Assembly (NCBI GenBank): GCA_022842725.1
Contig: JALHOZ010000012.1
Span: forward strand, 1 to 64,000
Reading direction: 5' to 3'
Length of the DNA: 64,000 nucleotides
Source: Saprospiraceae bacterium
GTDB taxonomy: Bacteria > Bacteroidota > Bacteroidia > Chitinophagales > Saprospiraceae
The position numbers and the translations under genes were made by a program. This document shows positions 2,455 to 33,566 of this stretch, piece after piece. The number at the start of each line of letters is the position of its first letter. The stretch's first letter is position 1. Under the pieces are notes generated by a model. The model did no database searches and was not told the origin of the DNA. It saw only the letters and a list, made by a program, of their open reading frames with translations.

Positions 2455-3768
2455 TTATTCTGCCTGATAACCGATAATGGTCCCATCAGGAATAATGGCA
2501 TTTTTATTAAGTACGACAATACCTTTTTTGATGACATAATGTTCATTCTCCTGATCTTTCAGTCTGTCATTACCTCTGATCAGTACCCTGTCCCCTACCC
2601 GGGCATGTTTGTCGATGATGGCATTTTCTATAAAACAATCCTTACCTATTCCCATGGGAATGTCAGATTTACTCGCCAAAAACTCCAATGGTTCCCAGTA
2701 GTCATTTCCCATGATGTAACTGTTTTTTATAACAGTGCCATGACCTATTCTGGACCGGATTCCTAAAATGGAATTTTCCACCAGTTTTGCATTTACAATG
2801 GAACCTTCCGCCACAATGGAATTGGTAAAGGTAACACCAGAAAATTTTGCCGGTGGCAACAATCTGGGACGCGTAAAAATTTTATTATTATTGTCAAATA
2901 AATTGAAATCAGGTATGTCTTTTGTCAAAGCCAGATTGGCTTCAAAAAAAGATTTAATGTCTCCTATATCTGTCCAGTATCCATCGTAAGCGTAACTGAC
3001 CACGTTTAAACCGCCGGCAATAGATTGTGGTATAAGTTCTTTTCCAAAATCTACAGCATCAGGATTGTTATTCAACAAATCACGCAGGGCTGCTCTGCTG
3101 AAAATATAAATTCCCATGGAGGCAAGATAATGTTTCCCCTGATTTTTCAAATGGTCTTCCACTTCTGATTGCCATTCCGGCAATATATCATGTCCGGGTT
3201 TTTCGATAAATCTTTCAATATTGGAATCGCCATCAACTTTCATGATTCCAAAAGAAGTGGCATCATCTGCTATTACAGGAATGGTTGCGATCGTAACATC
3301 TGCTTTTTTTTCAATATGGACTTCAAACATCTCCCTGAAATCCATCTGGTACAGCTGATCACCCGATAAAATTAAAATATGGTCAAAATTATGGTAAGCA
3401 AAATTGCGGACTGACTGACGCACTGCATCTGCTGTGCCCTGAAACCAATTCATATTCAATGCAGTTTGTTCTGCCGCAAGGATGTCTACAAAACCGTTTG
3501 AAAAATTATCAAAGTGAAAAGTGTTTTTGATATGTTTGTTTAATGACGCAGAATTGTACTGAGTAAGGACAAAAATTCTGTATAAACCTGAATTTAAACA
3601 ATTCGATATCGGAATGTCTATCAATCTGTATTTTCCGCCTATAGGAACGGCAGGTTTGGATCTGTCCTTCGTAAGAGGATACAACCGGGAACCGGCACCG
3701 CCGCCTAAAATGAGGCAAATCGACCTTCCCATTGCAACGGAGGCATCATATTTTTCGGATTTTGACAT
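2455..3768 (-). CDS. glgC: Glucose-1-phosphate adenylyltransferase (ADP-glucose pyrophosphorylase)
   Basis: 437 residues, full length for bacterial GlgC. Makes ADP-glucose from glucose-1-phosphate and ATP, the committed step of glycogen synthesis. The nucleotidyltransferase signature GGGAGSRLYPLT lies at 22-33, followed by KPAVPIGGKYRLID (38-51) and later SGDQLYQMD; the C-terminal third shows left-handed beta-helix hexapeptide character (NSIVAEGSIV, NAIIDKHARVGD). Start chosen at the first ATG; a second Met at residue 13 sits directly before the core domain and is an alternative. No other glycogen gene is adjacent, so it appears to be a stand-alone glgC. Upstream, CAACTTTG resembles a -7 element. 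Confidence 0.95.
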   Translation of the reverse strand: MSKSEKYDASVAMGRSICLILGGGAGSRLYPLTKDRSKPAVPIGGKYRLIDIPISNCLNSGLYRIFVLTQYNSASLNKHIKNTFHFDNFSNGFVDILAAEQTALNMNWFQGTADAVRQSVRNFAYHNFDHILILSGDQLYQMDFREMFEVHIEKKADVTIATIPVIADDATSFGIMKVDGDSNIERFIEKPGHDILPEWQSEVEDHLKNQGKHYLASMGIYIFSRAALRDLLNNNPDAVDFGKELIPQSIAGGLNVVSYAYDGYWTDIGDIKSFFEANLALTKDIPDFNLFDNNNKIFTRPRLLPPAKFSGVTFTNSIVAEGSIVNAKLVENSILGIRSRIGHGTVIKNSYIMGNDYWEPLEFLASKSDIPMGIGKDCFIENAIIDKHARVGDRVLIRGNDRLKDQENEHYVIKKGIVVLNKNAIIPDGTIIGYQAE

Positions 3769-18534: not shown

Positions 18535-18945
18535 TTATAATGAATTTTCAGGTAATTCGTATATCAATCCCTGAGGTGTAGTACCTGAGGAACTTTCGGT
18601 AGCAGGAGGATTTTTAACATTTTCTCTTGACCCCAACCAATATCTTCCTTCAGCAAGAAAGGCGATAATGGCCCATACCAAAAGTAATGTCGGAAACAAT
18701 ACTGTCCTTACCAAACCCGGTACTTCATATTTCATATGCATAAACTCATATACAATCAGGTATGCTTTCACAATACTCAACAAAATCATCATTCCACCGG
18801 TAATCCAACCACTGATATAAAACCCATCAACTAGGTAACCTTTGCCAAGCAAGGCAAAAACAACTTCGAATATGGTAATAAAAGCAAGAATTAATATGGT
18901 TTTCGTTGCTATTGTCTTTGAACTTTCGTAACTTAAATGTCCCAT
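18535..18945 (-). CDS. coxD: Cytochrome c oxidase subunit IV
   Basis: 136 residues. Three hydrophobic helices (about 14-33, 39-60, 76-96) and the conserved YEFMHMKYE segment after helix 2, typical for the prokaryotic COX4 family (CoxD/CyoD-like). Small membrane subunit that stabilises subunits I and III. Last gene of the respiratory operon; 17 bases from coxC, followed immediately by a terminator. Confidence 0.88.
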   Translation of the reverse strand: MGHLSYESSKTIATKTILILAFITIFEVVFALLGKGYLVDGFYISGWITGGMMILLSIVKAYLIVYEFMHMKYEVPGLVRTVLFPTLLLVWAIIAFLAEGRYWLGSRENVKNPPATESSSGTTPQGLIYELPENSL

Positions 18946-18962
18946 GTAATATCAATATTTGA

Positions 18963-19817
18963 TTATAATAGATAGAATAATAAAAATACAAACACCCAAA
19001 CCAAGTCTACAAAGTGCCAGTACAATCCGATTTTCTCAACCATTTCGTACCCGTTTTTTCGTGATACATACAGCCCTGTATAAGAGTTAACACATATGAT
19101 AAGAAGGAAGATCACTCCTGTCAAAACGTGGAATCCGTGAAATCCGGTGATAAAGAAAAACAATGCACCAAATGCTTTTGGCCCGAATTGTTGTTGTTTT
19201 TCTTTTCCTGCATCAACTCCGTCTTCAGCCCTGTATTTCAAAGGATGCCACTCACCATCGTGTTTGTGGATTAAATATGAATCACCGGCTTTGAAGGTAT
19301 CACCCTCTTTGATATCATGGCCATCGCCTTCGAGGTATGTGCCTGATTCAGTATGTGAACCAAAAGGATTTATTTTAACAGACATGTGTTCTTTACCCAT
19401 TAAAGTATTCCATTCCCAAGCCTGACAGCCCAAAAACGCAGCACCACCAATGATAGTCCACAACATCCATTTTACAACACCCATTTTGTTTTCACGGTGA
19501 CCTTCCTGTACTGCTCTCACCATCGTGAAAGAAGAAGCCAATAGAATAAATGTCATCAAAGTAACAAATAATAACGGCTTGTGATGAAAACCACCCGGAA
19601 AAGTACTAAAAACAAAATCAGGTACCGGCCATGACGGCATGCTGAAACGCAATGCGCCGTAAGCTATCAGGAAACCCGAAAAAGTAAAAGCATCCGAAAG
19701 TAAAAAATACCACATCATCAACTTACCGTAACTTGCCTTAAAAGGCTCTGACCCACCATTCCATGATGGTTTGGTCTCCGCGTGATGATGCTGATCTGTC
19801 ATAGTATCTGAAGCCAT
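18963..19817 (-). CDS. coxC: Cytochrome c oxidase subunit III (second copy, with soluble loop)
   Basis: 284 residues from ATG 19817; a longer reading from 19892 runs into the upstream gene and is rejected. N-terminal His-rich segment, about five to six helices, and the family motifs SDAFTFSGF and FFFITGFHGFHV...WHFVDLVW. Between helices there is a hydrophilic insert of about 70 residues (roughly 133-205) rich in Gly, Lys, Asp and Glu, which should lie outside the membrane. Inserts here are usual in Bacteroidota. Subunit III surrounds the entrance of the D proton channel. Fourteen bases from the preceding coxC paralog. Confidence 0.92.
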   Translation of the reverse strand: MASDTMTDQHHHAETKPSWNGGSEPFKASYGKLMMWYFLLSDAFTFSGFLIAYGALRFSMPSWPVPDFVFSTFPGGFHHKPLLFVTLMTFILLASSFTMVRAVQEGHRENKMGVVKWMLWTIIGGAAFLGCQAWEWNTLMGKEHMSVKINPFGSHTESGTYLEGDGHDIKEGDTFKAGDSYLIHKHDGEWHPLKYRAEDGVDAGKEKQQQFGPKAFGALFFFITGFHGFHVLTGVIFLLIICVNSYTGLYVSRKNGYEMVEKIGLYWHFVDLVWVFVFLLFYLL

Positions 19818-19831
19818 TCGTAAAAAATTAT

Positions 19832-20413
19832 CTATTTGTAAAACATTAAAAACAAAAATAATACTATCCAAAGTCCGTCGACAAAATGCCAATAATTGAC
19901 AACCAAATCAAACTTTTGTCTCTTTCCGGCACTATTATCAAATGGAAAAAAGAATGCATATACGGCAGATATCATTAAAGCTACGATACCACCTAATACA
20001 TGTAATACGTGAATTCCGGTAATAAGATATAAAAATGAACCCGAAACGTTGCCTTTCAAATCAATACCTCTTTCTACCAGGGTATTCCAGGAAGTATATT
20101 GACTGATGATGAATAGTACCGCCAGGATCAAAGAAATGATAACACCGGTTTTATAATTTTTAACTGAAGAATTTTTTAAATATCCGCCGGTAAAATGTAA
20201 AGCGACACTTACCAGGATTACCAATAAAGTACTGACAAAAAAGGTAGTTGGCATAGAAAACTCCAACCAATTTCCACTTGCCTGTTTGACGATATAAGCA
20301 CTCAAAAAAGCAGCAAACATCATACCGATACTTGCCATTGCAGCCCAAAGCGCAAATTTTTGAGCATGAATTTTATTCCTCTTATTTGTTATACTTGTAT
20401 TCATTTTATTCAA
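19832..20413 (-). CDS. coxC: Cytochrome c oxidase subunit III (first copy)
   Basis: 193 residues with five helices, the compact form of subunit III. Motifs include FALWAAMASIGMMFA, ITGIHVLHVLGG and VNYWHFVDGLWI. The two adjacent subunit III genes are not identical in length and only share the family core. Start overlaps the ctaB stop by 8 bases. Both copies are kept in many Bacteroidota act-cox operons, suggesting both are subunits of one enzyme. Confidence 0.92.
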   Translation of the reverse strand: MNKMNTSITNKRNKIHAQKFALWAAMASIGMMFAAFLSAYIVKQASGNWLEFSMPTTFFVSTLLVILVSVALHFTGGYLKNSSVKNYKTGVIISLILAVLFIISQYTSWNTLVERGIDLKGNVSGSFLYLITGIHVLHVLGGIVALMISAVYAFFFPFDNSAGKRQKFDLVVNYWHFVDGLWIVLFLFLMFYK

Positions 20414-21308
20414 ATATCAATATGAATAATAAAAATAAAGGCAGATATAGAAAAGAATAAAACATGAGTTGTAATGCAGACTTTTTATCGAACGATAAAT
20501 GAAATCTGACACTGTAAAATATATATCCTGCTGTCAATAAAATCAACAATATAAACGAGTATAAACCTATAAGTTGCTGAACATACATAAAAACAAAAAC
20601 CGGTAAAATCAAAAGTGCGTATACAGTTGCATTTTTGCCTAATGTTCTGTCAATGTTTTCGCCAACAACAGGTAATAATTTGTACCCCGCATTTTTGTAA
20701 TCTTCAAAACTATTATAGCCGATTGCCCAGAAATGAGGAAATTGCCATAAAAACTGAATTACAAACAGGGACAATCCAAGATAGGTGATTTGGCCATCGA
20801 ATGCTGTTACTCCTATTAGTACGGGCAACGCACCAGGCACAGCCCCTACTGCAACCGCAGAAGTGGAATACCTTTTTAATGGTGTATATACAAAAGCATA
20901 GGTAACCATGCTCAACATTCCTAAAAACGCTGTCATGAAATGAATAGATGACAAAAATCCAACACCTATCAAACAGCTGATACCGGCAAACATCACCGCT
21001 TCAGAACTTTTCATTCGGCCGGCTGTCACAGGTCTGTCGGCGGTCCTTGACATATAACAATCAAATTCGCGTTCCAAAACCTGATTCAATGCATTGGCAG
21101 AAGCTGTAACAAAAAAACCGCCTATCGCCAAAACAGATAATACCGTCCAATTAATATCTCCGCCACATGCAATAAGGTATCCCAAAACTGAAGATACGAC
21201 TACCATAAGACTCAATCTGAGTTTTACCAGCATAGCGTAATCCTTCAGTTTTGTAAACTGAATATTTTGCGTTTGCTGCTCGGTTTGATATGTCTGTGAA
21301 GATTTCAA
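20406..21308 (-). CDS. ctaB: Heme O synthase (protoheme IX farnesyltransferase)
   Basis: 300 residues, about nine helices, UbiA superfamily. The farnesyl-binding Asp motif NQVLEREFDCYMSRT and the TADRPVTAGR motif are visible, and the second motif region YNSFEDYKNAGYKLLP follows. Converts heme B to heme O by adding farnesyl, the first step to heme A. Located inside the oxidase operon, 21 bases after coxA. The next enzyme, heme A synthase CtaA, is not found in this window. Confidence 0.93.
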   Translation of the reverse strand: MKSSQTYQTEQQTQNIQFTKLKDYAMLVKLRLSLMVVVSSVLGYLIACGGDINWTVLSVLAIGGFFVTASANALNQVLEREFDCYMSRTADRPVTAGRMKSSEAVMFAGISCLIGVGFLSSIHFMTAFLGMLSMVTYAFVYTPLKRYSTSAVAVGAVPGALPVLIGVTAFDGQITYLGLSLFVIQFLWQFPHFWAIGYNSFEDYKNAGYKLLPVVGENIDRTLGKNATVYALLILPVFVFMYVQQLIGLYSFILLILLTAGYIFYSVRFHLSFDKKSALQLMFYSFLYLPLFLLFILIFE

Positions 21309-21329: not shown

Positions 21330-23174
21330 TTAATGATCACCAACTTCTCCTTCTCTCAAAGGAACGTGTTGCTGAACAAACTCTCTTTCATCTTTACTAA
21401 AGTCATAAGGCCATCTGTGTACTACAGGAAGGTTGCCCGGCCAGTTACCGTGAATCGGTTCTATCGGTGTTGTCCATTCAAGTGTTGTAGCACCCCATGG
21501 ATTTTTAGATTTCATTTTTTTACCGTACCAAATACTGTAGAAAAAGTTGATCACAAAAACCAATTGAACAGCAAAAGCTATAATAGCAAACACTGTAATG
21601 AATTTATTCATATCGGTAAAGTGTCTGAATGCGTCGAATGACTCAAAACTGAAATATCTTCGGGGAACACCTGCCATACCAAGGTAATGCATTGGCCAAA
21701 ATATCGCATATGCACTGATCATGGTACCCCAGAAATGGATTTTACCCAATGTTTCGTTCATAAATCTTCCATACATCTTTGGATACCAATGATACACTCC
21801 GGCAAACATACCAAAAAATGCTGCAACACCCATTACGATATGAAAGTGAGCCACAACAAAATAAGTATCATGCAACTGAATGTCTATCGCCGAATTCCCT
21901 AAGAAAATTCCGGTAAGCCCCCCTGAAATAAACATGGAAACGAATCCTATGGCAAATAACATTGGGGTGTTCAATCTAAGATTTCCACCGTAAAGTGTCG
22001 TAATCCAGTTAAACACCTTCACTGCTGATGGAACCGCAATAATCAGGGTAAAAACAACAAAAAAGTTGGATAAAAATGGATTAACTCCGGACATAAACAT
22101 ATGGTGAGCCCAAACAATAAAGGATAAAAATCCAATTGCCATAATGGAATAAACCATGGCTCTGTATCCAAAAATTGGTTTTCTTGCGTGAACTGATAAC
22201 ACTTCAGAAACCAATCCCATAGCTGGAAGAATAATGATATATACTTCAGGGTGTCCTAAGAACCAAAATAAATGCTGGAATAAAATCGGACTTCCTCCTA
22301 CTCTGTCCAATGCCTGACCTTCTATAAAAATTTCACTCAAAAAGAAACTTGTTCCTAATGAACGATCAAATATAAGCATAAAAAAGCCAGATGCCAATAC
22401 CGGGAATGAAAGTAATCCGAGAATAGCTGTCACAAAAAATGCCCATATAGTCAAAGGCATTCTCCAAAGGGTCATACCTTTTGTTCTCAAATTTAAGACC
22501 GTAGTAATGTAATTAATACCACCTAATAAAACTGAGACTACAAATAAGGTTAAACTTACCAACCAGAGCGTCATACCTGTTCCGGAACCACTGCTCGCCT
22601 GAGGAAGAGCGCTCAATGGAGGATAGGCTACCCATCCTCCGGAAAAAGGCCCTGTGCTCAAAAACAAGGAATAAAACATAATAATACCTGCCAAAAAGAA
22701 AAACCAATATGAAAGCATATTCAGGAATGGCGACGCCATATCTCTCGCTCCCAACTGTAAAGGAATAAGGAGATTACTAAAAGTTCCACTTAAACCGGCA
22801 GTTAATACAAAAAATACAATGATTGTACCATGCATTGTAACCAATGCATAATAAAACTCGGGAACCAACTTACCTATTCCGGTAGTCGGGTCAACTTCTA
22901 TCCACTTACCCAATAAAGGTTTAATCCAGGTAAGACTTTCTTCCGGAAATCCAAGTTGCATTCTGAATATAACCGACATTGCAGCGCCGATTATAGCCCA
23001 AATCATACCCGTTATCAAAAACTGACGGGCAATGATTTTATGATCCATGGAGAATATATAGTGGAAGATAAAATTAGTCTGGTATTTATCGCCATGGTGA
23101 TGTTCATGGAAATGATCATCAAAACCCTGATCTTTGATCAATACATCATCTTCGTGTACTGTGATATTTGCCAT
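21330..23174 (-). CDS. coxA: Cytochrome c oxidase subunit I, A1-type
   Basis: 614 residues, 12 core helices plus an extra C-terminal region. Low-spin heme and CuB/heme a3 ligands are visible: TMHGTI (His), GHPEVYI (CuB His, with the A1-type Glu and the Tyr that crosslinks), WAHHMF (two CuB His), and HDTYFVVAHFHIVM (His ligands of both hemes). The FLGHPEVY form places it in the A1 subfamily with a Glu at the end of the D channel. Reduces O2 to water while pumping protons. 28 bases from coxB. Confidence 0.97.
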   Translation of the reverse strand: MANITVHEDDVLIKDQGFDDHFHEHHHGDKYQTNFIFHYIFSMDHKIIARQFLITGMIWAIIGAAMSVIFRMQLGFPEESLTWIKPLLGKWIEVDPTTGIGKLVPEFYYALVTMHGTIIVFFVLTAGLSGTFSNLLIPLQLGARDMASPFLNMLSYWFFFLAGIIMFYSLFLSTGPFSGGWVAYPPLSALPQASSGSGTGMTLWLVSLTLFVVSVLLGGINYITTVLNLRTKGMTLWRMPLTIWAFFVTAILGLLSFPVLASGFFMLIFDRSLGTSFFLSEIFIEGQALDRVGGSPILFQHLFWFLGHPEVYIIILPAMGLVSEVLSVHARKPIFGYRAMVYSIMAIGFLSFIVWAHHMFMSGVNPFLSNFFVVFTLIIAVPSAVKVFNWITTLYGGNLRLNTPMLFAIGFVSMFISGGLTGIFLGNSAIDIQLHDTYFVVAHFHIVMGVAAFFGMFAGVYHWYPKMYGRFMNETLGKIHFWGTMISAYAIFWPMHYLGMAGVPRRYFSFESFDAFRHFTDMNKFITVFAIIAFAVQLVFVINFFYSIWYGKKMKSKNPWGATTLEWTTPIEPIHGNWPGNLPVVHRWPYDFSKDEREFVQQHVPLREGEVGDH

Positions 23175-23202: not shown

Positions 23203-24711
23203 TTATTTTGAAATGATTTTCAATTCAGTTCTTCGGTTTTTGTCCCGACCTTCCGGTGTGTCATTACTATCCACAGGATTATTTTGACCGTATCCTTTTG
23301 CCACCAACTTTCCGGTTTCGATTCCTTTTGAAACGAGGTAATTTAATACACCCGAAGCTCTCTTCTGAGATAAGTCCAGGTTCATGGCAGCATCGCCGAC
23401 ATTGTCAGTATGTCCGGCCAATTCAACACGAACTGAAGGTCTGCCTTTTAATATGGAAACGAGATTATCAAGTTCATGTTTTGATAAATCGCTCAACTTA
23501 TCAGAACCCGTTTCAAAAAACACATTTTTCAGCGGAATGATGTTGGTCTTTGCCGAATCGCTCAATACATTAGCAAACTCTGCTTTCAACTCTTCCTCTC
23601 TTTGTTTAATCTCAAAAGAGAATAACCTTTTACCCTTGTTAGGGTCTGCATCCGTATTTCGGATGTTGGTCATATAGAATGATTTTTGCTGTGTAATCCA
23701 AGCATTGTATTCATCTCTGCTTACAACTTCAAGAACCCGTCGCATACTGTAATGACCTTTTCCGCATAATTCAGCACAAGCCAATTCGTATTCGAAAACT
23801 TCCCATCGTTTTGGTCCTTCCGGATCTTTGGGATCGGCGGGAACTTGCCATTCAGGATATTGGCTTAATTGTTCTCTGAATTCTTTAGTGGTCAGAACAG
23901 GTTTGAAAATGAAGGATGTAGGAAGTCCCGGAACCGCATCCATTTTTACCCTGAAATGAGGAAGATAAAAATTGTGAAGAACATCTTTGGCTGTGATCCG
24001 AACTTTAACTGTTGTATCCACCGGGAGAACTATTTTATCTGTTCCACCCAAAACAATGTCATCGGCAGAATGTTCGTCGGTAAAGTCTAAACCTAAACTA
24101 TTATTTGCAAGATCAATCAGACGGAAATCTTTATTACCAAGTTTACCATCCGGACCTGGATATCTGATATCCCAAGCAAACTGATATCCTGTAGCTTCGA
24201 TCTCAATATATTTATCCTCATTTGTCAATGTAGGGAAAATATTATTCCAGGCAACCAAACCTCGTGCCACTAAAAAAGTCATTACTACGGCAGGTACAGC
24301 TGTCCATATCATTTCCAATTTTGTATCATGGGCAAAAAATATGGCTTTTGTTCCTCGTTGCTGGCGATATTTATAAGCATACCAAAATAAAAGAATATGC
24401 GTCAAAACGAATACAATTCCTGTAAATATTAGGGTAACATTAAAAATACTATCTAATTCAAATCCATGTTCTGAAGCCGAAGTCAAAGGACCATAACCCA
24501 ACATGTAATTTTTATAATAGTACGCTGAAACGACACTACCAACCAGAAATACAACCATAAAGATCATACCCCAGATACCTTGTGTCGTATTATTCTGTAA
24601 TTCTACTTCTTCCTCACCTCTGATTTTTGATGCCAATTCAGAAACTTTGCCAATCTGAATTACAATCACAGCAAGGAGAAAAACTATACCAAATGCTATT
24701 AGATACGTCAT
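23203..24711 (-). CDS. coxB: Cytochrome c oxidase subunit II with C-terminal OmpA-like peptidoglycan-binding domain
   Basis: 502 residues, about twice the usual subunit II. Hydrophobic segments at about 3-21 and 46-66 precede the two canonical subunit II helices (about 88-112 and 132-152). The CuA site is complete: His246, Cys312, Glu314, Cys316, His320, Met323 (CAELCGKGHYSM). After it comes a charged linker (331-390, KQREEELKAEF) and a full OmpA C-terminal domain (392-502): NVFFETGS, AGHTDNVG with Asp436, LSQKRASGVLNYL, GYGQNNP and NRRTEL with Arg493/494, i.e. both residue types that hold diaminopimelate. Since the CuA domain is periplasmic, the OmpA domain faces the peptidoglycan. It is one uninterrupted frame. 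No cytochrome c domain is present. Confidence 0.95.
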   Translation of the reverse strand: MTYLIAFGIVFLLAVIVIQIGKVSELASKIRGEEEVELQNNTTQGIWGMIFMVVFLVGSVVSAYYYKNYMLGYGPLTSASEHGFELDSIFNVTLIFTGIVFVLTHILLFWYAYKYRQQRGTKAIFFAHDTKLEMIWTAVPAVVMTFLVARGLVAWNNIFPTLTNEDKYIEIEATGYQFAWDIRYPGPDGKLGNKDFRLIDLANNSLGLDFTDEHSADDIVLGGTDKIVLPVDTTVKVRITAKDVLHNFYLPHFRVKMDAVPGLPTSFIFKPVLTTKEFREQLSQYPEWQVPADPKDPEGPKRWEVFEYELACAELCGKGHYSMRRVLEVVSRDEYNAWITQQKSFYMTNIRNTDADPNKGKRLFSFEIKQREEELKAEFANVLSDSAKTNIIPLKNVFFETGSDKLSDLSKHELDNLVSILKGRPSVRVELAGHTDNVGDAAMNLDLSQKRASGVLNYLVSKGIETGKLVAKGYGQNNPVDSNDTPEGRDKNRRTELKIISK

Positions 24712-24745: not shown

Positions 24746-26053
24746 TTAAACATGGTGATGTAAACTCTCTTCCAAATAAGGATCATTTTTGGGAACGAGA
24801 GGAGCCTTAGAAAGAGAGTACAGTCCTACGAAAAGGAAGAGTCCTAAAAATCCTAAAAAGGTACCTAATTCCAACAATCCAGGCAAGGTAAAACCTTCTA
24901 CAAAAGCAGAAACATGCTCTGCACCATGGGCAGCATGAGGATCTGCGGCGTGTTCAGCACCATGCTCTCCTGAATGCAAACTATGAAGTGCATGATTGGC
25001 TGTTATCAAAGCTGCAGGTTTTATCATGAGGAAAAAATCTACCCAGTGGCCCAACAATAAAATAATGGAAACCAAACCAACAGATCCGAATTTTCTTTTT
25101 GTATCATTTCTCATAAGGATGAGGAAAGGTACTAAAAAGTTGATTATCAGATTTCCAAAAAACAGGACAGGATAATTGTCATATCTTTCTCTGAAATAAA
25201 TGGTCTCCTCGCCGATATTTGCATACCAAATCAACATAAATTGTGAAAACCATAAATACGTCCAGAAAACACTAAAAGCAAATAAAAATTTACCTAAATC
25301 ATGGATGTGACTATCATTTACCTCTTTGTAATATCCATTGGATTTTAACCAGATTAACAAAAGAATGGTCAAAGAAATCATAGAAACAAACCAACTTGTT
25401 GCTGTATACCAGGCAAATAACGTACTGTACCAATGAGAATCAAGACTCATCACCCATTGCCAGATCATAGCAGCGCTTGAAAAACCAACTATGGGTAAAA
25501 ATATAGCTGAGTAAACTTTGAGATTTTTGTGATGACTGTACGATGTATCACCATTTTTATCTTCGTCCAAAGAAATTTGTCTGAATTTTCTGGAAAAAAA
25601 GATCCAGGAACCTACTACTATAATTGTTCCGAAAAAATACCAGTTCTTATTCAAAAAAGAGGACTTACCGTGCAATATTTTATCATATTCGGGATTGTTA
25701 GGATCCAGTAAAGACTCATCTGCCCAATGGTACAAATGGTGCCAATGCATGTAAACTCCCAAACCCAAAATCAACATAAAAAACACTCCGACATACATGT
25801 AAGAAGAGTAAGCTTCCCAAACTCTTTTAAAAGTGGTATGCCATCCTGCGTATGCGGTAACACACACTGCCATAAAAAAGGCAGCCATAACAGAGATTCC
25901 AAGAAAAAAAACGGAATTGTGCAAAAAATTACTCCAGAACCTGGTGTGGAATGCATCATCATTCATCCATGTGAGCACCATGGAAATAATGCCTATACCC
26001 ATTGCTCCGATCAATACATTGCGTTGTTTTGACGTAAAAATATACTGGTTCAT
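24746..26053 (-). CDS. actF: Alternative complex III subunit ActF (NrfD-like membrane subunit)
   Basis: 435 residues with about ten helices; short His-rich loop near residue 365 (HAAHGAEH) and a His-rich C-terminus. Matches the quinol:cytochrome c oxidoreductase ActF family, a divergent NrfD/PsrC homolog paired with ActC. In known structures it forms the second half of the membrane core and is thought to contribute to proton movement. Located 34 bases upstream of coxB in the same operon. Confidence 0.93.
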   Translation of the reverse strand: MNQYIFTSKQRNVLIGAMGIGIISMVLTWMNDDAFHTRFWSNFLHNSVFFLGISVMAAFFMAVCVTAYAGWHTTFKRVWEAYSSYMYVGVFFMLILGLGVYMHWHHLYHWADESLLDPNNPEYDKILHGKSSFLNKNWYFFGTIIVVGSWIFFSRKFRQISLDEDKNGDTSYSHHKNLKVYSAIFLPIVGFSSAAMIWQWVMSLDSHWYSTLFAWYTATSWFVSMISLTILLLIWLKSNGYYKEVNDSHIHDLGKFLFAFSVFWTYLWFSQFMLIWYANIGEETIYFRERYDNYPVLFFGNLIINFLVPFLILMRNDTKRKFGSVGLVSIILLLGHWVDFFLMIKPAALITANHALHSLHSGEHGAEHAADPHAAHGAEHVSAFVEGFTLPGLLELGTFLGFLGLFLFVGLYSLSKAPLVPKNDPYLEESLHHHV

Positions 26054-26079: not shown

Positions 26080-26895
26080 TTAATTAATTGTTTCCACTTT
26101 GGTTGTATCAACCGGAACCGTTGCAGCAGTCTCCAACTTTATTAAAGAAGCCGGTTTGTCGATACTATTTAATGTGTTGGCTTTTTCACTGTAAACCAAC
26201 TTTTTGGCTTCTGCCTGAAGTGACCGGATATAATGTATAACCTGCCATCTTTCTTCATAAGACAACTTATCACTATATCCTGACATCAGGTTTCTACCAT
26301 AAATTATACCGTGATAGTATCTACCATTTGAGGCAGCGACAAATTCGTCTGTCATAAAATTAGCCGGCTGAACAGGATACTTTCCACCGTTGTCTCGTAA
26401 CAGGTAACCAGCTCCATCCCCCTTCTCACCGTGGCAGATACCACAATAGATATTATAAAGGTTCTTTCCTTTAGCCAATCCTGCTTCAGTAATAGGATAA
26501 GGGTTATTAATAATTTCATTGGTTGCCCGAATTCTTTCTTCTTCTGTATCTGTATAATAATAAGGTTTCGCACCATTCGACTGATAAGCAATTCCTTGTT
26601 GTGACATTGAAGAAGTAAATCCTACAGAACCACCGGTTGCTCCTCTGGCTATCGATCCGTTGATAGGTTTTCTGGGTTGAACCATTTTATGCAATTCATC
26701 TTCTGTGCCCCAACGATTGTTGTAATAATAACCGTAGGTATTTGCTTCGTAAGCAACTGAGTGTGCCATATCCGGCATGTATTCACTACCTGTGGTATTT
26801 CCACCGGGTTGCTGACATGAGAACATAATCATGGATATACATGCTCCCAATAATACATATAAAATATTCCCTTTGTGTGTCATACGACTATACAA
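26080..26895 (-). CDS. actE: Alternative complex III subunit ActE (monoheme cytochrome c lipoprotein)
   Basis: 271 residues. Lipobox IMFSC near residue 27 predicts a lipid anchor. A single heme motif, CGICH in NIYCGICHGEKGDGAG, lies around residue 155, with a Met ligand candidate in YGRNLMSGYSDKL. ActE is the monoheme subunit that transfers electrons from the ActA hemes to the oxidase or to soluble cytochrome c. Begins one base after the actD stop region (no gap), suggesting coupling. Confidence 0.93.
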   Translation of the reverse strand: MYSRMTHKGNILYVLLGACISMIMFSCQQPGGNTTGSEYMPDMAHSVAYEANTYGYYYNNRWGTEDELHKMVQPRKPINGSIARGATGGSVGFTSSMSQQGIAYQSNGAKPYYYTDTEEERIRATNEIINNPYPITEAGLAKGKNLYNIYCGICHGEKGDGAGYLLRDNGGKYPVQPANFMTDEFVAASNGRYYHGIIYGRNLMSGYSDKLSYEERWQVIHYIRSLQAEAKKLVYSEKANTLNSIDKPASLIKLETAATVPVDTTKVETIN

Positions 26896-27417
26896 TTATA
26901 AGGTTTTATGATTAATTTCAACGGCACCTGTTTGTTTCAATAAAGAAACTGCTTTATCTTCACTTACAGAACCTTTGTCAAAAGCCAGGCAAAATTTATC
27001 ATCTGTAATTCTGTCATCCAGATGCTGATTGACAACACCGGGTCCAAGGCCATTAACAATATAAAAAGTAACGGTCATTCCGATTGCTGCAAAAAGAACC
27101 GTCAACTCAAACGTGATCGGAATAAATGCAGGTACGGACCAATATGGTTTACCACCAAAAACATTCGGCCAGTCTTTTGTAAAAATCCAGGTCATACCTA
27201 AAAAGGCTGTCAATGTACCAAGTGCACCGTAAATGAAACCGGCTATATGTAAACGTGACTCTTCCAAACCCAAAACCGGATCCAATCCATGTATTGGGAA
27301 CGGTGTAAAAACATCGTAAATATCAAGGTGTGCTGTTTTAGCTTCTTTAACTGCTCTGATCAGATCTTCCTCATCATTGTAAAGACCAAAAACTATTTCT
27401 TTATGATTATTTGCCAT
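26896..27417 (-). CDS. actD: Alternative complex III subunit ActD (DUF3341)
   Basis: 173 residues. N-terminal soluble part with VFTPFPIHGLDPVLGL, the family hallmark, then two membrane helices (about 59-80 and 98-120), then a soluble C-terminal tail. DUF3341 proteins are the ActD subunit, bridging the ActC and ActF modules. Position between actC and actE is standard. Confidence 0.95.
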   Translation of the reverse strand: MANNHKEIVFGLYNDEEDLIRAVKEAKTAHLDIYDVFTPFPIHGLDPVLGLEESRLHIAGFIYGALGTLTAFLGMTWIFTKDWPNVFGGKPYWSVPAFIPITFELTVLFAAIGMTVTFYIVNGLGPGVVNQHLDDRITDDKFCLAFDKGSVSEDKAVSLLKQTGAVEINHKTL

Positions 27418-27451: not shown

Positions 27452-28852
27452 TCAATGATGTTCGTGATGATGTTTGTGTGTGGCATTTTCTCCAACATAC
27501 TGATTACCTCCTGTCTTAAGTACTGATTTTACTTCAGCTACTGCAACTACCGGAGCTACTCTTGTAAATATAAGGTAGCAGGTAAAAAACAAGCCAAAAG
27601 TTCCGATATAAATACCTATTTCTACCCATGATGGCGAATATAAACTCCAGCTTGAAGGTAAATAATCTCTAGCCAAAGTTGTGGCGATAATCACAAAACG
27701 TTCAAACCACATTCCGATATTGATAAAAATAGACATCAGGAAAGTAAGGGTTATATTTCTTCTCCATGATTTTTTCCAAAATAATTGAGGAGAGATAACA
27801 TTACAAAACATCATTCCAAAATATGACCACCAATAAGGCCCTAATGCTCTGTTGAAAAAAGCAAACTGTTCATATACATATCCTGAATACCATGCTATAA
27901 AAAGCTCTGTCAGATAAGCAACACCAACAATAGTACCTGTCACCAAAATAACTTTGTTCATTGACTCAATGTGTTCGACAGTGATGTAGTCCTCAAGTTT
28001 TAATAACTTTCTGGTGATAATCATCAGGGTCAAAACCATAGCGAAACCTGAAAAAACGGCTCCGGCAACAAAATAAGGAGGAAATATAGTTGTATGCCAT
28101 CCCGGAATAACGGAAGTGGCGAAGTCAAAACTTACAATCGTGTGAACAGAAAGTACGAGTGGTGTGGATAAACCAGCCAAAACAAGAGAAAGTGACTCCC
28201 ATCTTTGCCAGTGTTTTGCAGAACCTGTCCAACCAAAAGATAAGAAGTTATAAATTTTTCTTCTCATACCTTTTGCTCTGTCCCTTACGGTTGCAAAATC
28301 CGGAACCAAACCTGTATACCAAAATAACAAGGAAACTGTAAGATAGGTAGAAATCGCAAACACGTCCCAAAGCAATGGCGAGTTAAAGTTTGGCCATAAT
28401 GGTCCTCTTGTGTTTGGATAAGGTAAAATAAACATGGCCAACCATATCCGTCCCATGTGAATTAACGGGAACAATCCGGCACACATTACGGCAAAAATTG
28501 TCATCGCTTCAGCAGCCCTGTTTACTCCTGTTCTCCATTTCTGTCTGAACAATAAGAGGATGGCTGAAATCAGGGTACCCGCGTGACCGATACCAATCCA
28601 CCAAACGAAATTGGTAATATCCCATCCCCAGTTTACGGTTCTGTTCAGATTCCAACTTCCGATTCCCACATAAATGGTCCAAAGGATACAAAAAACACCG
28701 TAAGAAAGAACAGCCACCGAAATAATCAATCCGATGGTCCAGGCTCTTGTGGGTGCCTTTTCAGTTGGTGAAATCAAATCTTCCGTAATCTGATGGTACG
28801 TTTTATTACCTGTGATTAACGGTCTTCTGATTGGACTTACAACAGCGCTCAT
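27452..28852 (-). CDS. actC: Alternative complex III subunit ActC (NrfD/PsrC-like)
   Basis: 466 residues with about ten helices; motifs [19 protein letters not shown] near residue 80 and [17 protein letters not shown] near 250 are typical of ActC and contribute to the quinol site. It oxidises menaquinol together with ActB. His-rich C-terminal tail (HKHHHEHH) could bind metal. 31 bases downstream of actB. Confidence 0.95.
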
Positions 28853-28883: not shown

Positions 28884-31800
28884 TTATGCATCAAGTGCAC
28901 TATCTCTGTTATTCACCTTCATGGTATAGGTCACGGAAGATCTGACATTGATCTCTTCCAATGCTATATAATTTAAAGGTGACTCCAATTTACTGCTTAA
29001 CATGTCTTTTTTGTTGTTCATATCCCCGAAGGTAATGGCTCCGGTAGGACAAGATGTCTGACAAGCTGTTTTAACATCAGCATCCATCAATTCTCTGCCT
29101 TCTACTTTTGCCGCTAATTTTCCTTCCTGAATTCTTTGAACACAGAAACTACATTTTTCAATAACTCCTCTAGATCTTACAGTTACATCAGGGTTTAATA
29201 CCATTCTGGTGAGGTTGTCTGCTCCGAAAGGAATGTTCTCATCTGCCAGTTTTGGCTGATTACCAGGGAAGATATCCGCGGTTGTATAATCCAACCAGTT
29301 GAATCTTCTTACTTTATAAGGACAGTTGTTTGCACAATATCTTGTACCAATACATCTGTTGTACGCCATTTGGTTTAATCCCTCAGATGAGTGATTGGAA
29401 GCATTTACAGGACAAACATTCTCACATGGAGCATTATCACAATGCTGACACATCATTGGTTGGTAGATCGTATTAGGACTTTCAATATCGCCATAATAAT
29501 ATCTGTCAATTCTCAACCAGGCCATCTCATGGTGAATTGCAACCTCGTGTTTACCAACAACAGGTACGTTATTTTCAGCCATACACGCTACGGTACAAGC
29601 TCCGCAACCTATACATGCATTGAGATCAACGTGCATTCCCCAATGATGACCCAATTTATAGTTGTGGTCAAATCCGGCGTAAATCTGTTGTTCATTCAGA
29701 TGCTGGGCGTGTTTTCTCTTTTTGGTCAGACCTTCAATACTGTTTTTCAGATCATTTACGTGTGCTGTATACACTACTGATCTATCGGTCAACGCTCCCT
29801 GAAATCCCTTCGCACCGGTAAAATAATCAAAAAATACCAATGCCGCTTCATCAGCATTGATTTCCTTTCCTGATTCAGTATCCACAGCTTTTACGCCTAT
29901 GGTGTGGTGATACTGAACACATGAAAAGTCTTTTTCTTTACCTATTTTGGTGCTTACGGCAACATTACTGCTATAATTTTGACGATACCCGTTTACGTAG
30001 GTAAGGTCGTTATTTACATTAATACCAACATTTTGTCCTGTAATTCCTGCATGTGTTCTGCCATATCCTAAAGCTATCGCAACTGTTCCAGGCATTTGAC
30101 CGAATTGTTGAATCACAGGAACGGTATATTTGGAATCTCCAATCGATAACTCCACCAATTCTCCATCCTTAAGATTCTGAAATCCAACCATTTTGCTCAC
30201 TCCGTCAAAATTGACAGGCACAGCAAGGTAATTCCCCCAATTGGTTCTGTTGACCGGATCAGGCATCTCCATCAACCATGGGTTTCCGGCATATTGACCA
30301 TTTCCTAACTGAACGGTTTCATAAAAAGAAATTTCCAATTCTTTTCCTGAAGGTTTGGTGTAATCAGCAGGTATATTAACAGAAGTGAAGGACGCAGACG
30401 AAACACTTCCGGTGTTAAAGACACCATCATGTACACACGAATCCCAGAATGTTGTAAAAGATGAAACCGCATTTTGATTAGCAAAAACGGTGTTTTTCCA
30501 ATTATTTTTTACATATTCATAATATGGTTGCGGATTAACAAAATCGACAGAAGCACTTTCTGCCCACTTCAATAAAGACAATTCAGCTTGTCTTGTATTG
30601 AATAAAGGAGCAATAGTTGGTTGAATTAAGGTGTAATAACCTTGTTTAACCTCTACATCTCCCCAACTTTCGAGAAAATGGTGATTAGGAGCGATGATAT
30701 CACATTTATCTGTTGTTTCATCAACCGTTGTGTTGAAAGACAACTTATTTTTGACTTTTCCGAAAGCTTCAGTAAAGGCTGATGCCATAGGAGCGTCATA
30801 AACCGGATTGGCATTCATAATGATAACCATATCCACACTTCCTGATTTCATTTCACTAACCAAAGCTGCAAAATCAGCATCATTTCCCTGAGCTTGTTGG
30901 GAGGTAACTCCCATATTTATGGTAGAACCATAACTGCCCAGTGCATTGTTGATGGCATTTACCATCAATTGTTCAGCTACAACATTTGAAGAGGAAACTA
31001 CAAGTGCTGCGCCTTGAGCAGCTTTCAATTCTTCTGCAATTTTTGTCAAAGATTTTTTTGCTTTATCATTCAGGCCTGAAGTTGACATACTGCCACCTAC
31101 AATGCTATTATATAAAGCTGCAATAGCTACTCCCTGCTCTGATGGTTTGACCAAAATCCTGTTGTCCGCATTGGAACCTGTCAAAGACATATGGCTTTCA
31201 ACCTGTATGTGTCTTGACATTTTTGCTTTGGTTACATCATCAATTTTCCTGTTTTTGATATAATCACCTGCAAATTCAATCGGAGAAATCCAGGTTCCCA
31301 AAAAGTCCGCATTAAAAGAGACAATGACGTTGGCTTTATCAAAATGGTAAGAAGGAAGAGCCTTTTTACCGAAGTTTAAACTATTTGCTTCCAATACAGC
31401 ACTATAAGACACCGGGTCATAGGTGACTACTTTGGCATTTGGGTATTTTGCCGTAAAATCTGCCAAAGATTTATTGGAACTTGGACTCATATTGGTATTT
31501 GATATGATCCGGATATTGGAAGACGACTGTATGGTAGTCATCACCATTTTGTCCAAATCTTCCCATGAAGTATCATTCCAACCTTTGTCAGATTTCAGTT
31601 TAGGTCCTGAAATTCTGTGTGTATCATATAAACTAAGGACGGCAGCCTGCGCTCTGGCTGAAGTACCACCTCTTGTAACCGGTGATAAATCATTACCTTC
31701 TATTTTGATAGGACGTCCTTCCCGTGTTTTTACGAGAATCGAACAATAGTCACCACCATTTACGAAAGTTGAAGCATAATAATTAGCTACTCCGGGTACG

Positions 31801-32051
31801 ATTTCTTCCGGTTTTACTACATAAGGAATGGCTCTTTTTACAGGAATATCACATCCTGCAGCTACTGTAGCTGCTCCGAGTCCGAAACCCAGAAATTTTA
31901 GAAAATCTCTTCTGTTACCTGACAAGTGTTCTGTCATTTCACCTGTAGTAAGTGCTGAAGGCGAAACTTCCTGGGTAGCTTCTTTAAGGAAATCGATATC
32001 TTGTTCCAAATCCTTTTGGCCTATCCAAATATTGTCTATGGGTTGTTTCAT
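28884..32051 (-). CDS. actB: Alternative complex III subunit ActB (molybdopterin-oxidoreductase-like iron-sulfur protein)
   Basis: 1055 residues. A Tat-type signal, NRRDFLKFLGFGLGAATVAAGC, sits about 50 residues from the start and ends in a lipobox-like Cys. The large middle part resembles the molybdopterin oxidoreductase catalytic subunit but in this family carries no Mo cofactor. The C-terminal third is a four-cluster ferredoxin domain: CIGCGACTVAC, CQHCDNAPCENVCP, CIGTRYCANNCP and CSFC...CQTSCPTGA, expected to bind three [4Fe-4S] and one [3Fe-4S]. Takes electrons from quinol and passes them to the ActA hemes. Confidence 0.96.
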   Translation of the reverse strand: MKQPIDNIWIGQKDLEQDIDFLKEATQEVSPSALTTGEMTEHLSGNRRDFLKFLGFGLGAATVAAGCDIPVKRAIPYVVKPEEIVPGVANYYASTFVNGGDYCSILVKTREGRPIKIEGNDLSPVTRGGTSARAQAAVLSLYDTHRISGPKLKSDKGWNDTSWEDLDKMVMTTIQSSSNIRIISNTNMSPSSNKSLADFTAKYPNAKVVTYDPVSYSAVLEANSLNFGKKALPSYHFDKANVIVSFNADFLGTWISPIEFAGDYIKNRKIDDVTKAKMSRHIQVESHMSLTGSNADNRILVKPSEQGVAIAALYNSIVGGSMSTSGLNDKAKKSLTKIAEELKAAQGAALVVSSSNVVAEQLMVNAINNALGSYGSTINMGVTSQQAQGNDADFAALVSEMKSGSVDMVIIMNANPVYDAPMASAFTEAFGKVKNKLSFNTTVDETTDKCDIIAPNHHFLESWGDVEVKQGYYTLIQPTIAPLFNTRQAELSLLKWAESASVDFVNPQPYYEYVKNNWKNTVFANQNAVSSFTTFWDSCVHDGVFNTGSVSSASFTSVNIPADYTKPSGKELEISFYETVQLGNGQYAGNPWLMEMPDPVNRTNWGNYLAVPVNFDGVSKMVGFQNLKDGELVELSIGDSKYTVPVIQQFGQMPGTVAIALGYGRTHAGITGQNVGINVNNDLTYVNGYRQNYSSNVAVSTKIGKEKDFSCVQYHHTIGVKAVDTESGKEINADEAALVFFDYFTGAKGFQGALTDRSVVYTAHVNDLKNSIEGLTKKRKHAQHLNEQQIYAGFDHNYKLGHHWGMHVDLNACIGCGACTVACMAENNVPVVGKHEVAIHHEMAWLRIDRYYYGDIESPNTIYQPMMCQHCDNAPCENVCPVNASNHSSEGLNQMAYNRCIGTRYCANNCPYKVRRFNWLDYTTADIFPGNQPKLADENIPFGADNLTRMVLNPDVTVRSRGVIEKCSFCVQRIQEGKLAAKVEGRELMDADVKTACQTSCPTGAITFGDMNNKKDMLSSKLESPLNYIALEEINVRSSVTYTMKVNNRDSALDA

Positions 32052-32091: not shown

Positions 32092-33495
32092 TTAATAATG
32101 ACATTTTTGACATTCCAATCCTCCGATGTCGGCAACGGTAACTTTACTTCTTTTGCCTGATGCCAACTCTTCGTGGTATCTGGCATAATCAGCATAGTAT
32201 GGATTGTCTAAAAATTTAACTTCTGTTTGTCTGTGGCAATTGATACACCATCCCATTGAAAGAGGTGATGCCTGTGCCAAAACCTCCATGGTTTCTACAG
32301 GGCCGTGACAAGTCTGACATTCGACTTTACCAACGGTAACGTGCTGAGCATGATTAAAATATACATGATCAGGAAGATTATGTATTCTTGTCCACTCTAT
32401 AGGACCCTGAATGTTTTTTTTCTGTTCGTTGGTCAGAGATTTAACGATGTCTTTCCACTGTTTTTCAACAAGTTTTACACCTTCTTTATCCAAATCTGCC
32501 AATTCTTTTGACACTTTGTATTGATCACCCATCCACTTGGTATAAATGGCCTTGATTTCTTCTTCCGTTTTGGATTCGTAATTTTCCACATACAAGTTGG
32601 TAGTGGGATCGTAACCAATAGAAGCAAATATTTTGGTGATTTCTGCGGTACCGTATTTAGAACCAACTTTAATCGCTTTATGACAATTCATACAGGTATT
32701 TGCTCCCGGTATGCTTGAATGTTTTGATTTTCTTGCAGAATCATGACAATACTGACAATCAATTTTGTGCAGACCTGCATGGGTTTCATGCGAAAATTTA
32801 ATAGGTTGATCCGGAGCGTATCCTTCCTGCCTTCCCAGATTTGTTGCATTATTAACTGTCGTGTATGATCCTAAAATGACTGCAGAGAAAATTAAAAAAG
32901 TAACCACTCCTTTTGAAGACATAATTTGCCAAAGGGTTTTCTTTTCGTAATCTTCCCCTTCTTTGGCAGCTACGATATGCCGAAGGTTCAGGATAATTTT
33001 TGTTAACAATAATGCCAGCGCTGCAAGAATAACTGCAATGATGACATACATAGGCAGGTTGCTCTTTTTTTCGACCGGACCTTTTGCTTCCTCACCTGCA
33101 GCCACAGGAGCCGCGCCGTACGTACCGTCATAAACACCATTGATGTAAGCCATCATACTTCCTATCTCATCATCTGTAAGATTAGGGAATGCTGTCATCA
33201 CTGTAGGCTTGTATTGATTCCACAATTCTACCGCTCTCGGATGTCCGTCTGCAATCAATGCCTGAGAATTTCTGATCCAGGCATACAAAGCAGCATCGTC
33301 TCCCCATCGCTGTTGAGAACCACCGAGTGCCGGACCTGTGGCAGCTGACCTCATGTCTTTGGCGTGACAGGCAGCACAATAACTTTTGAATAATTCTTTT
33401 CCTGCGTCAGGACTGACTTGAGCACGAGCTGAAGATATCGTGATCAAAGAAAAGATGGCCAGATATAAGCTGAATTTCAGATGTTTGTACATCAT
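32092..33495 (-). CDS. actA: Alternative complex III subunit ActA (multiheme cytochrome c)
   Basis: 467 residues from ATG 33495 (a second ATG follows at once; a reading from 33534 adds residues before the signal peptide). Signal ending SARAQ. Six CxxCH motifs: CAACH in an N-terminal class I cytochrome domain, then CQYCH, CMNCH, CQTCH, CINCH and CQKCH in the multiheme part after a membrane helix (about 155-175). Electron wire from ActB to ActE. The final CQKCH is three residues from the C-terminus. First gene of the operon; a -7 element lies about 70 bases upstream. Confidence 0.95.
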   Translation of the reverse strand: MMYKHLKFSLYLAIFSLITISSARAQVSPDAGKELFKSYCAACHAKDMRSAATGPALGGSQQRWGDDAALYAWIRNSQALIADGHPRAVELWNQYKPTVMTAFPNLTDDEIGSMMAYINGVYDGTYGAAPVAAGEEAKGPVEKKSNLPMYVIIAVILAALALLLTKIILNLRHIVAAKEGEDYEKKTLWQIMSSKGVVTFLIFSAVILGSYTTVNNATNLGRQEGYAPDQPIKFSHETHAGLHKIDCQYCHDSARKSKHSSIPGANTCMNCHKAIKVGSKYGTAEITKIFASIGYDPTTNLYVENYESKTEEEIKAIYTKWMGDQYKVSKELADLDKEGVKLVEKQWKDIVKSLTNEQKKNIQGPIEWTRIHNLPDHVYFNHAQHVTVGKVECQTCHGPVETMEVLAQASPLSMGWCINCHRQTEVKFLDNPYYADYARYHEELASGKRSKVTVADIGGLECQKCHY

Positions 33496-33566
33496 CGTCG
33501 AAGATGTTTGAGATTTGATATTTCTTTTATACACGAAAATGTGAATATTTTCTTAAAATTTGAGCA

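Follow-up and report, generated by a model that had tools for sequence, protein, structure and literature searches.

The window, by which we mean the whole 64,000-nt stretch of DNA analysed, holds an operon in the order actA-B-C-D-E-F, cox2, cox1, ctaB, cox3 (Table 1). The actABCDEF genes lie upstream of the cox genes and the COX2 gene adjoins COX1, with CtaB and COX3 also present, which is the arrangement of an ACIII-oxidase operon and, within it, of an aa3 oxidase operon. The COX2 gene is one unbroken minus-strand frame of 502 codons according to the ORF listing and translation; the plus-strand reading of the same positions contains many stops. Pfam matches follow one another in the protein as COX2_TM (residues 78-147), COX2 (171-262) and OmpA (398-493), all above their cut-offs, with the OmpA match (PF00691) at E 3.1e-22 and 79.2 bits against a gathering cut-off of 27.2. 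The CoxB model TIGR02866 scored 134 bits, below its cut-off of 147.7, while the Pfam COX2 and COX2_TM cut-offs were passed.

Table 1. Coordinates of the fusion gene and its parts, of the neighbouring operon genes and of further OmpA carriers (positions are in the window unless a locus is named)
Feature	Position	Strand	Basis
COX2-OmpA fusion gene, 502 aa	23203..24711	-	ORF and translation, Pfam
Membrane part, residues 1-160	24232..24711	-	AlphaFold2 model; Pfam COX2_TM
Periplasmic CuA domain, residues 165-343	23683..24219	-	Pfam COX2; PDB sequence matches; fold
CuA motif, residues 312-323 (C312 E314 C316 H320 M323)	23743..23778	-	residue check
Charged linker, residues 344-389, helix 365-384	23545..23682	-	AlphaFold2 model
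OmpA-like peptidoglycan-binding domain, residues 390-502	23206..23544	-	Pfam; PDB sequences; fold
D436, predicted diaminopimelate ligand	23404..23406	-	conservation; spacing from PMC6572160 (excerpt)
R451, predicted diaminopimelate ligand	23359..23361	-	conservation
ActA-like multihaem cytochrome c, 6 CxxCH	32092..33534	-	motif count and homologues
ActB (Fe-S / molybdopterin-type)	28884..32051	-	Pfam
ActC (NrfD)	27452..28852	-	Pfam
ActD	26896..27417	-	PF11821
ActE, mono-haem cytochrome c, lipobox-like start, without OmpA in the window	26080..26895	-	
ActF	24746..26053	-	position and homologues; without Pfam match
COX1	21330..23174	-	PF00115
Haem o synthase CtaB	20406..21308	-	TIGR01473
COX3	19832..20413	-	PF00510
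Second COX3-like protein	18963..19892	-	NCBIfam matches below cut-off
Oxidase subunit IV-like	18535..18945	-	TIGR02229, below cut-off
H_PPase with C-terminal OmpA	L189:2812-5517	-	
H_PPase with C-terminal OmpA	L191:1996-4866	-	
H_PPase with C-terminal OmpA	L210:834-3587	-	
H_PPase with C-terminal OmpA	L211:630-3425	+	
ActE-OmpA example	L214:2072-3343	-	
ActE-OmpA example	L240:1286-2755	+	
ActE-OmpA example	L241:3583-4761	-	

The protein was modelled with AlphaFold2 from a 47-row alignment (mean pLDDT 87; residues 391-502 in blocks of 86-97). The membrane part was modelled as helices at residues 2-31, 33-65, 81-114 and 130-158, two more than the two-helix membrane part of canonical COX2. Foldseek matched the oxidase side of the model to COX2 chains (7au3_B, for example, at 3.8e-13) and the wall side to OmpA folds (5u1h_A at 3.2e-10; 5wtp_B at rmsd 0.9 over 104 columns). 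ORF, Pfam and model agree with the original prediction of an uninterrupted frame from membrane helices through CuA and a charged linker into OmpA, and the structure prediction proposed there for the OmpA part returned a confident OmpA fold. Cys312, Cys316, His320 and Met323 stand where that prediction had placed them; the upstream H246, together with E314, completes the site, the Cx3CxxxHxxM pattern plus upstream His is present, and all six residues are invariant across the 47 rows. The C-terminus of COX2 is periplasmic. A cytochrome c extension of the caa3 type was ruled out, since CxxCH occurs nowhere in the 502 residues. The window also encodes a second oxidase, a fused cbb3 enzyme at 52262-54400 on the minus strand, where a CcoN-like and a CcoO-like part share a single frame of 712 aa (COX1 + FixO).

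Peptidoglycan binding by domains of this type involves an Asp/Arg pair that holds diaminopimelate (DAP), which in A. baumannii OmpA is D271/R286, 15 residues apart (PMC6572160, in the excerpt available to us). D436 and R451 of the window protein form an Asp/Arg pair with the same spacing of 15. Asp436 thus keeps the role of putative DAP ligand that it had been given at the outset, whereas Arg493/494, named as its partners, do not: R493 and R494 are conserved too, yet the pair partner is R451, 15 residues after D436 by the spacing in that excerpt. Among 75 different COX2 domains of the Saprospiraceae (f1, in the GTDB sense) the aspartate is kept in 73, the exceptions being L238 and L239, and the arginine in all 75. 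Both residues are also kept in other COX2 proteins (7/7), in ActE (8/8) and in pyrophosphatase tails (3/3). Paralogous OmpA domains keep the pair about equally well (Asp 36/38, Arg 37/38), and its conservation is therefore evidence that the domain functions rather than that it serves respiration. Consistent with constraint, dN/dS of the OmpA part (Nei-Gojobori) was 0.009-0.191 in the 8 of 20 chosen pairs with OmpA dS of 0.1-2, the remaining 12 being saturated or too close. dN of the OmpA part exceeded that of the CuA core in 18 of the 20 pairs, so the OmpA part evolves faster, but under constraint.

The fusion is widespread in f1. Among the matches listed in a search of 396 genomes of the order (Chitinophagales, GTDB sense), the alignment ran through the OmpA domain in 102 of 133 f1 genomes, a count that leaves aside the truncated G278 and three f1 genomes that gave no match. 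The other 31 comprise G755, cut by a contig end, three genomes with decayed OmpA ends (G220, G250 and G703), ten with the domain on ActE and 17 with it on neither COX2 nor ActE. Fused genes were present in the named isolates Portibacter marinus, P. lacus, Lewinella cohaerens and two Membranihabitans marinus strains. Two doubts raised with the original prediction, absence from close relatives and a frameshift or assembly join, are answered by these data: 102 of the 133 listed relatives align through OmpA, and an artefact of assembly is ruled out because the fusion recurs in dozens of separate assemblies as well as in isolates. The distance from the CuA Met to the OmpA start is narrow in f1 (65-79 aa, mean 70.5, sd 2.4; 86 loci, duplicates included) and 69-94 aa in the COX2-OmpA proteins beyond it. 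Five Saprospiraceae COX2 proteins without OmpA (L220, L222, L224, L228 and L236) have a long tail instead, which is probably coiled or low-complexity.

The domain search that had been suggested thus placed COX2-OmpA in most of f1 and, sporadically, in other families of the order: G019 (f19), G053 and G183 (f8), G118 (f18), and G024, G037 and G073 (f4). Sister genomes of these carriers (L131, L132 and L133) have COX2 without OmpA, in a tally that counts as none L020 and L067, both cut by a contig end; the end of the L131 COX2 looks like an OmpA remnant. Losses or decays were also seen at L019, L111, L115 and L131. Beyond the order, none of the matches listed for 395 genomes of the class, down to E 2.4e-60, aligned past query residue 392, and in the search of 296 genomes of the phylum only OmpA-only rows of other proteins reached past that residue (among the matches listed, to 8.8e-26). 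Since the matches listed end at these values, and since the fused G118 was absent from those of the order search, rare cases beyond the order may have been missed. OmpA was found on COX2 in 0 of 20 loci beyond the order that were picked among long frames. In 12 of these 20 (L139-L144, L146-L150 and L157), CxxCH lies near the N-terminus of the COX2 frame; here a cytochrome c is apparently fused N-terminally, unlike the C-terminal caa3 arrangement.

A second carrier is new here: ActE, the cytochrome c lipoprotein of ACIII, bears an OmpA tail in place of COX2. In G192, for example, COX2 lacks OmpA and the ActE of the same operon continues from its cytochrome c lipoprotein part into an OmpA domain. 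ActE-OmpA was detected in ten f1 genomes (G192, G699, G715, G759, G739, G769, G723, G746, G683 and G763) and in nine more genomes of three related families: G001 and G022 in f2; G011, G085, G065, G028, G138 and G076 in f12; and G052 in f22. The ActE of G022, in which the haem stretch reads X, was assigned because ActD and ActF flank it and because it gives a weak match. G041 and G054 (f12) have ActE without OmpA, and no full-length ActE-OmpA was found among the matches listed in f20 (16 genomes) or beyond the order (17), of 80 genomes searched. The linker measures 39-65 residues in the 5 of 10 loci that allowed the haem domain's end to be located, and all 10 rows of the ActE-OmpA alignment have the D/R pair, there D329/R344. 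A structural model of ActE-OmpA was poor and was set aside (mean pLDDT 55; OmpA part 71-92). In L255 (G128), an ActE frame at 1507-2757 overlaps a separate OmpA frame at 2601-3116, both on the plus strand, and looks like a frameshifted ActE-OmpA gene.

In the genomes examined the two placements exclude each other, none having both. At 74 loci with both genes present, OmpA was on COX2 without ActE-OmpA at 48, on neither at 26 and on both at 0. The 48 include L019, which has a decayed domain; the 26 comprise 20 loci (L069-L088) from Cyclobacteriaceae or from genera that we take to belong there, four Saprospiraceae and two cut by contig ends. Contig-end cuts of ActE fall N-terminally, so the position of any OmpA tail is still read. 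ActE-OmpA was likewise seen in 0 of the six COX2-OmpA loci beyond f1 with readable ActE (L119-L124) and in none of the nine fused f1 genomes in the ActE search (E <= 1e-30, one Saprospiraceae query). Conversely, COX2-OmpA was found in 0 of the 19 ActE-OmpA genomes. For the ten in f1, either the COX2 frame itself was read or the COX2 alignment stops before OmpA; for G001, G011 and G022 the frame was read and lacks OmpA; those of G138, G028 and G052 are 347, 390 and 363 aa; and G065, G076 and G085 were judged from scores, which barely differ between the COX2-only and the full query. A Fisher test on the counts 0/48/10/17 gave p of about 1e-5, a value that ignores shared ancestry; the 17 'neither' entries hold one genome twice (L061 = L227), and without it p = 7e-6.

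OmpA tails also occur on an unrelated ion pump. In at least four of 298 genomes searched (G053, G058, G024 and G052, among the matches listed), a membrane pyrophosphatase frame of 902-957 aa carries the domain, with H_PPase (PF03030) and OmpA both matched by Pfam in L189, L191 and L210; this is a second ion pump with a putative wall tether. OmpA domains are abundant, with 9-43 matches per genome in 40 genomes, and shuffling onto many proteins is therefore expected. We examined the origin of the tails in OmpA-domain trees, which have 108 columns and many unresolved forks. The starred branches require the label to change at least 3 times for COX2 and at least 2 times for ActE. An earlier tree with other rows (domains of at least 60 bits kept; COX2 rows thinned from 82 to 69) forced 4 and 3 changes, counts that two rows mislabelled as paralogs may have raised: L185 is the cut G053 pyrophosphatase (the gene of L189), and L125 is the cut G192 ActE. 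For the later tree, f1 COX2 was thinned at 60% identity, and L003, L008, L183, L185, L186, L187, L199, L201, L202, L203, L207, L208, L211, L238, L239, L244, L245 and L255 were left out.

In the trees, the COX2 domains of f8, f18 and f19 form one fully supported clade with pyrophosphatase OmpA tails and the tail of a DUF937 protein; of the pyrophosphatase rows, L191 and L210 are in both trees, and L185 (= L189) and L211 only in the earlier one. The DUF937-OmpA protein (L002 in the trees) belongs to the window's own genome (L195:1474-2742, minus strand, 423 aa) and is a possible source of the module on the pyrophosphatase and on the f8/f18/f19 COX2. The COX2 tail of G019 and the pyrophosphatase tail of G053 match at 63% over residues 361-524, a stretch that reaches upstream of the Pfam domain. 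The f4 COX2 domains lie elsewhere in the tree, beside a paralog (97/86). Some f1 and f12 ActE domains group weakly (85/85), so these may share ancestry. A label change can be a gain or a loss, and 'three sources' is thus only a reading of the placements.

The fusion, its conservation, the intact ligand residues, purifying selection and the exclusive placement on two subunits were all shown computationally. On this sequence evidence we propose as the simplest account, with a probability of about 0.7, that the OmpA tail is a peptidoglycan tether for the ACIII-oxidase supercomplex, with one position per complex. In this aa3 oxidase coupled to ACIII, the CuA subunit would run through a helix-bearing linker of ~50 residues into an OmpA-type domain, which would grip meso-diaminopimelate of peptidoglycan through D436 and R451 and thereby fix the supercomplex laterally, keep wall and inner membrane a defined distance apart, or both. 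One position per supercomplex would suffice, and some relatives would place it on the neighbouring ActE rather than on COX2. Given the periplasmic C-terminus of COX2 and the position of ActE, the OmpA domain of either carrier would lie on the side of a single assembly that faces the wall. ActE is a lipoprotein atop ActA, and within the supercomplex of R. marinus it adjoins oxidase subunit II, a position described as favourable for electron transfer to subunit IIc (PMC5928083, in the portion available). We infer that the domain binds peptidoglycan in vivo, that the complex is tethered and that the cell benefits. The tether would be dispensable in some lineages, because 17 of the 133 listed f1 genomes have the domain on neither subunit, three have a decayed one and L238 and L239 lack the aspartate. 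Of the original prediction, both domains, the setting in the operon and the idea of an anchor hold up; its arginine was misassigned, and COX2 is not the only protein to be fused. The anchor idea, in which wall binding is predicted, gains from three comparative results: the D/R pair is conserved, selection is purifying, and a domain of this type also hangs on ActE, a second subunit of the supercomplex, but never on ActE and COX2 together.

The same domain could instead serve the envelope, as the mirror image of this proposal: the abundant oxidase would bolt the sacculus to the inner membrane, just as Pal and OmpA hold it from the outer one. OmpA tails on the membrane pyrophosphatase (G053, G058, G024 and G052) would be expected in that case, because any abundant inner-membrane protein would do. 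However, the domain listing of the window gives no OmpA domain on the cbb3 oxidase, an internal control which argues that in this genome the tether belongs specifically to the ACIII-coupled enzyme, and the alternation between COX2 and ActE within one complex points to that complex. We consider such a bolt the less likely of the two readings.

Still less probable, in our view, is an element internal to the complex, in which the domain packs on ACIII near ActE and COX2, helps the complex to assemble or to transfer electrons, and does not bind the wall. The adjoining positions of the two carriers in R. marinus (from the same portion of PMC5928083) and the narrow CuA-OmpA spacing in f1 would suit such a role, but nearly every copy has the DAP-ligand residues intact, the same type of domain sits on the pyrophosphatase, and an interface of this kind would not easily tolerate COX2 tails that lie apart in the tree (f1, f4 and f8/f18/f19). 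The many losses and decays (31 of 133 listed f1 rows not aligned through OmpA; L019, L111, L115 and L131) and the high copy number of OmpA domains might suggest that common domains were occasionally caught on COX2 and ActE by chance, with little function. Purifying selection, retention in about three quarters of the family (among the matches listed), recurrent attachment and exclusivity speak against this, and we regard it as very improbable.

The usual view is that respiratory complexes diffuse in the membrane. A built-in domain of a wall-gripping type on an O2-respiring complex suggests that one group of environmental bacteria has its respiratory machinery bolted to the cell wall. Taken further, the repeated appearance of OmpA on COX2 or ActE, never on both, and sometimes on the pyrophosphatase, could mean that the main proton-pumping complexes of the order are immobile and wall-registered rather than freely diffusing, an extension to which we give about even odds. 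If the tether is real, it is a natural and genetically separable one, with which one could ask whether respiration depends on where an oxidase sits, how mobile it is or how far it lies from the wall, and whether respiratory complexes contribute to the organisation of the envelope. A comparative experiment over many species is already at hand in the alternation of COX2 and ActE.

The window protein shares its CuA ligands, transmembrane part and operon with COX1 and CtaB with aa3 COX2 (PF00116/PF02790; CoxB TIGR02866), but adds two N-terminal helices (in the model) and the C-terminal OmpA domain, and falls short of the CoxB cut-off. Known COX2 extensions are cytochrome c domains; caa3 subunit IIc has, like the window protein, an extra periplasmic domain C-terminal on COX2, which is a cytochrome c there and OmpA here. 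With OmpA C-like domains (PF00691: OmpA, Pal, OprF, MotB/PomB) it shares the fold, the D/R pair and, with MotB, the anchoring in the inner membrane, whereas the carrier here is a respiratory electron-transfer subunit. MotB is an OmpA-type anchor on an inner-membrane machine. The nearest functional parallel is PsaB of Gloeobacter violaceus photosystem I (7f4v_aB), which belongs to a bioenergetic membrane complex and ends in an OmpA-like domain; the complex is a photosystem there and an oxidase here. A peptidoglycan-binding motif in Gloeobacter PsaB was reportedly described in FEBS Letters in 2004. Residues 754-864 of 7f4v_aB match the window OmpA domain at 6e-16 in a PDB sequence search; the available portion of PMC9000952 gives 7F4V as the Gloeobacter entry, tabulates PsaB as 3-727 and does not use the word 'peptidoglycan'. 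ACIII-aa3 and ACIII-caa3 supercomplexes of F. johnsoniae and R. marinus have the same operon and subunits as the window, and the portions available of their descriptions (PMC8552683, PMC5928083, PMC8361435) do not mention an OmpA domain, ompA appearing in that of PMC8552683 only as a promoter name. In line with the original prediction, which knew of no published account, none that describes OmpA on an oxidase, on ACIII or on a pyrophosphatase was found in the open-access literature searched. COX2 extensions and OmpA anchors on inner-membrane machines are known in kind; the comparative pattern found here is unexpectedly strong.
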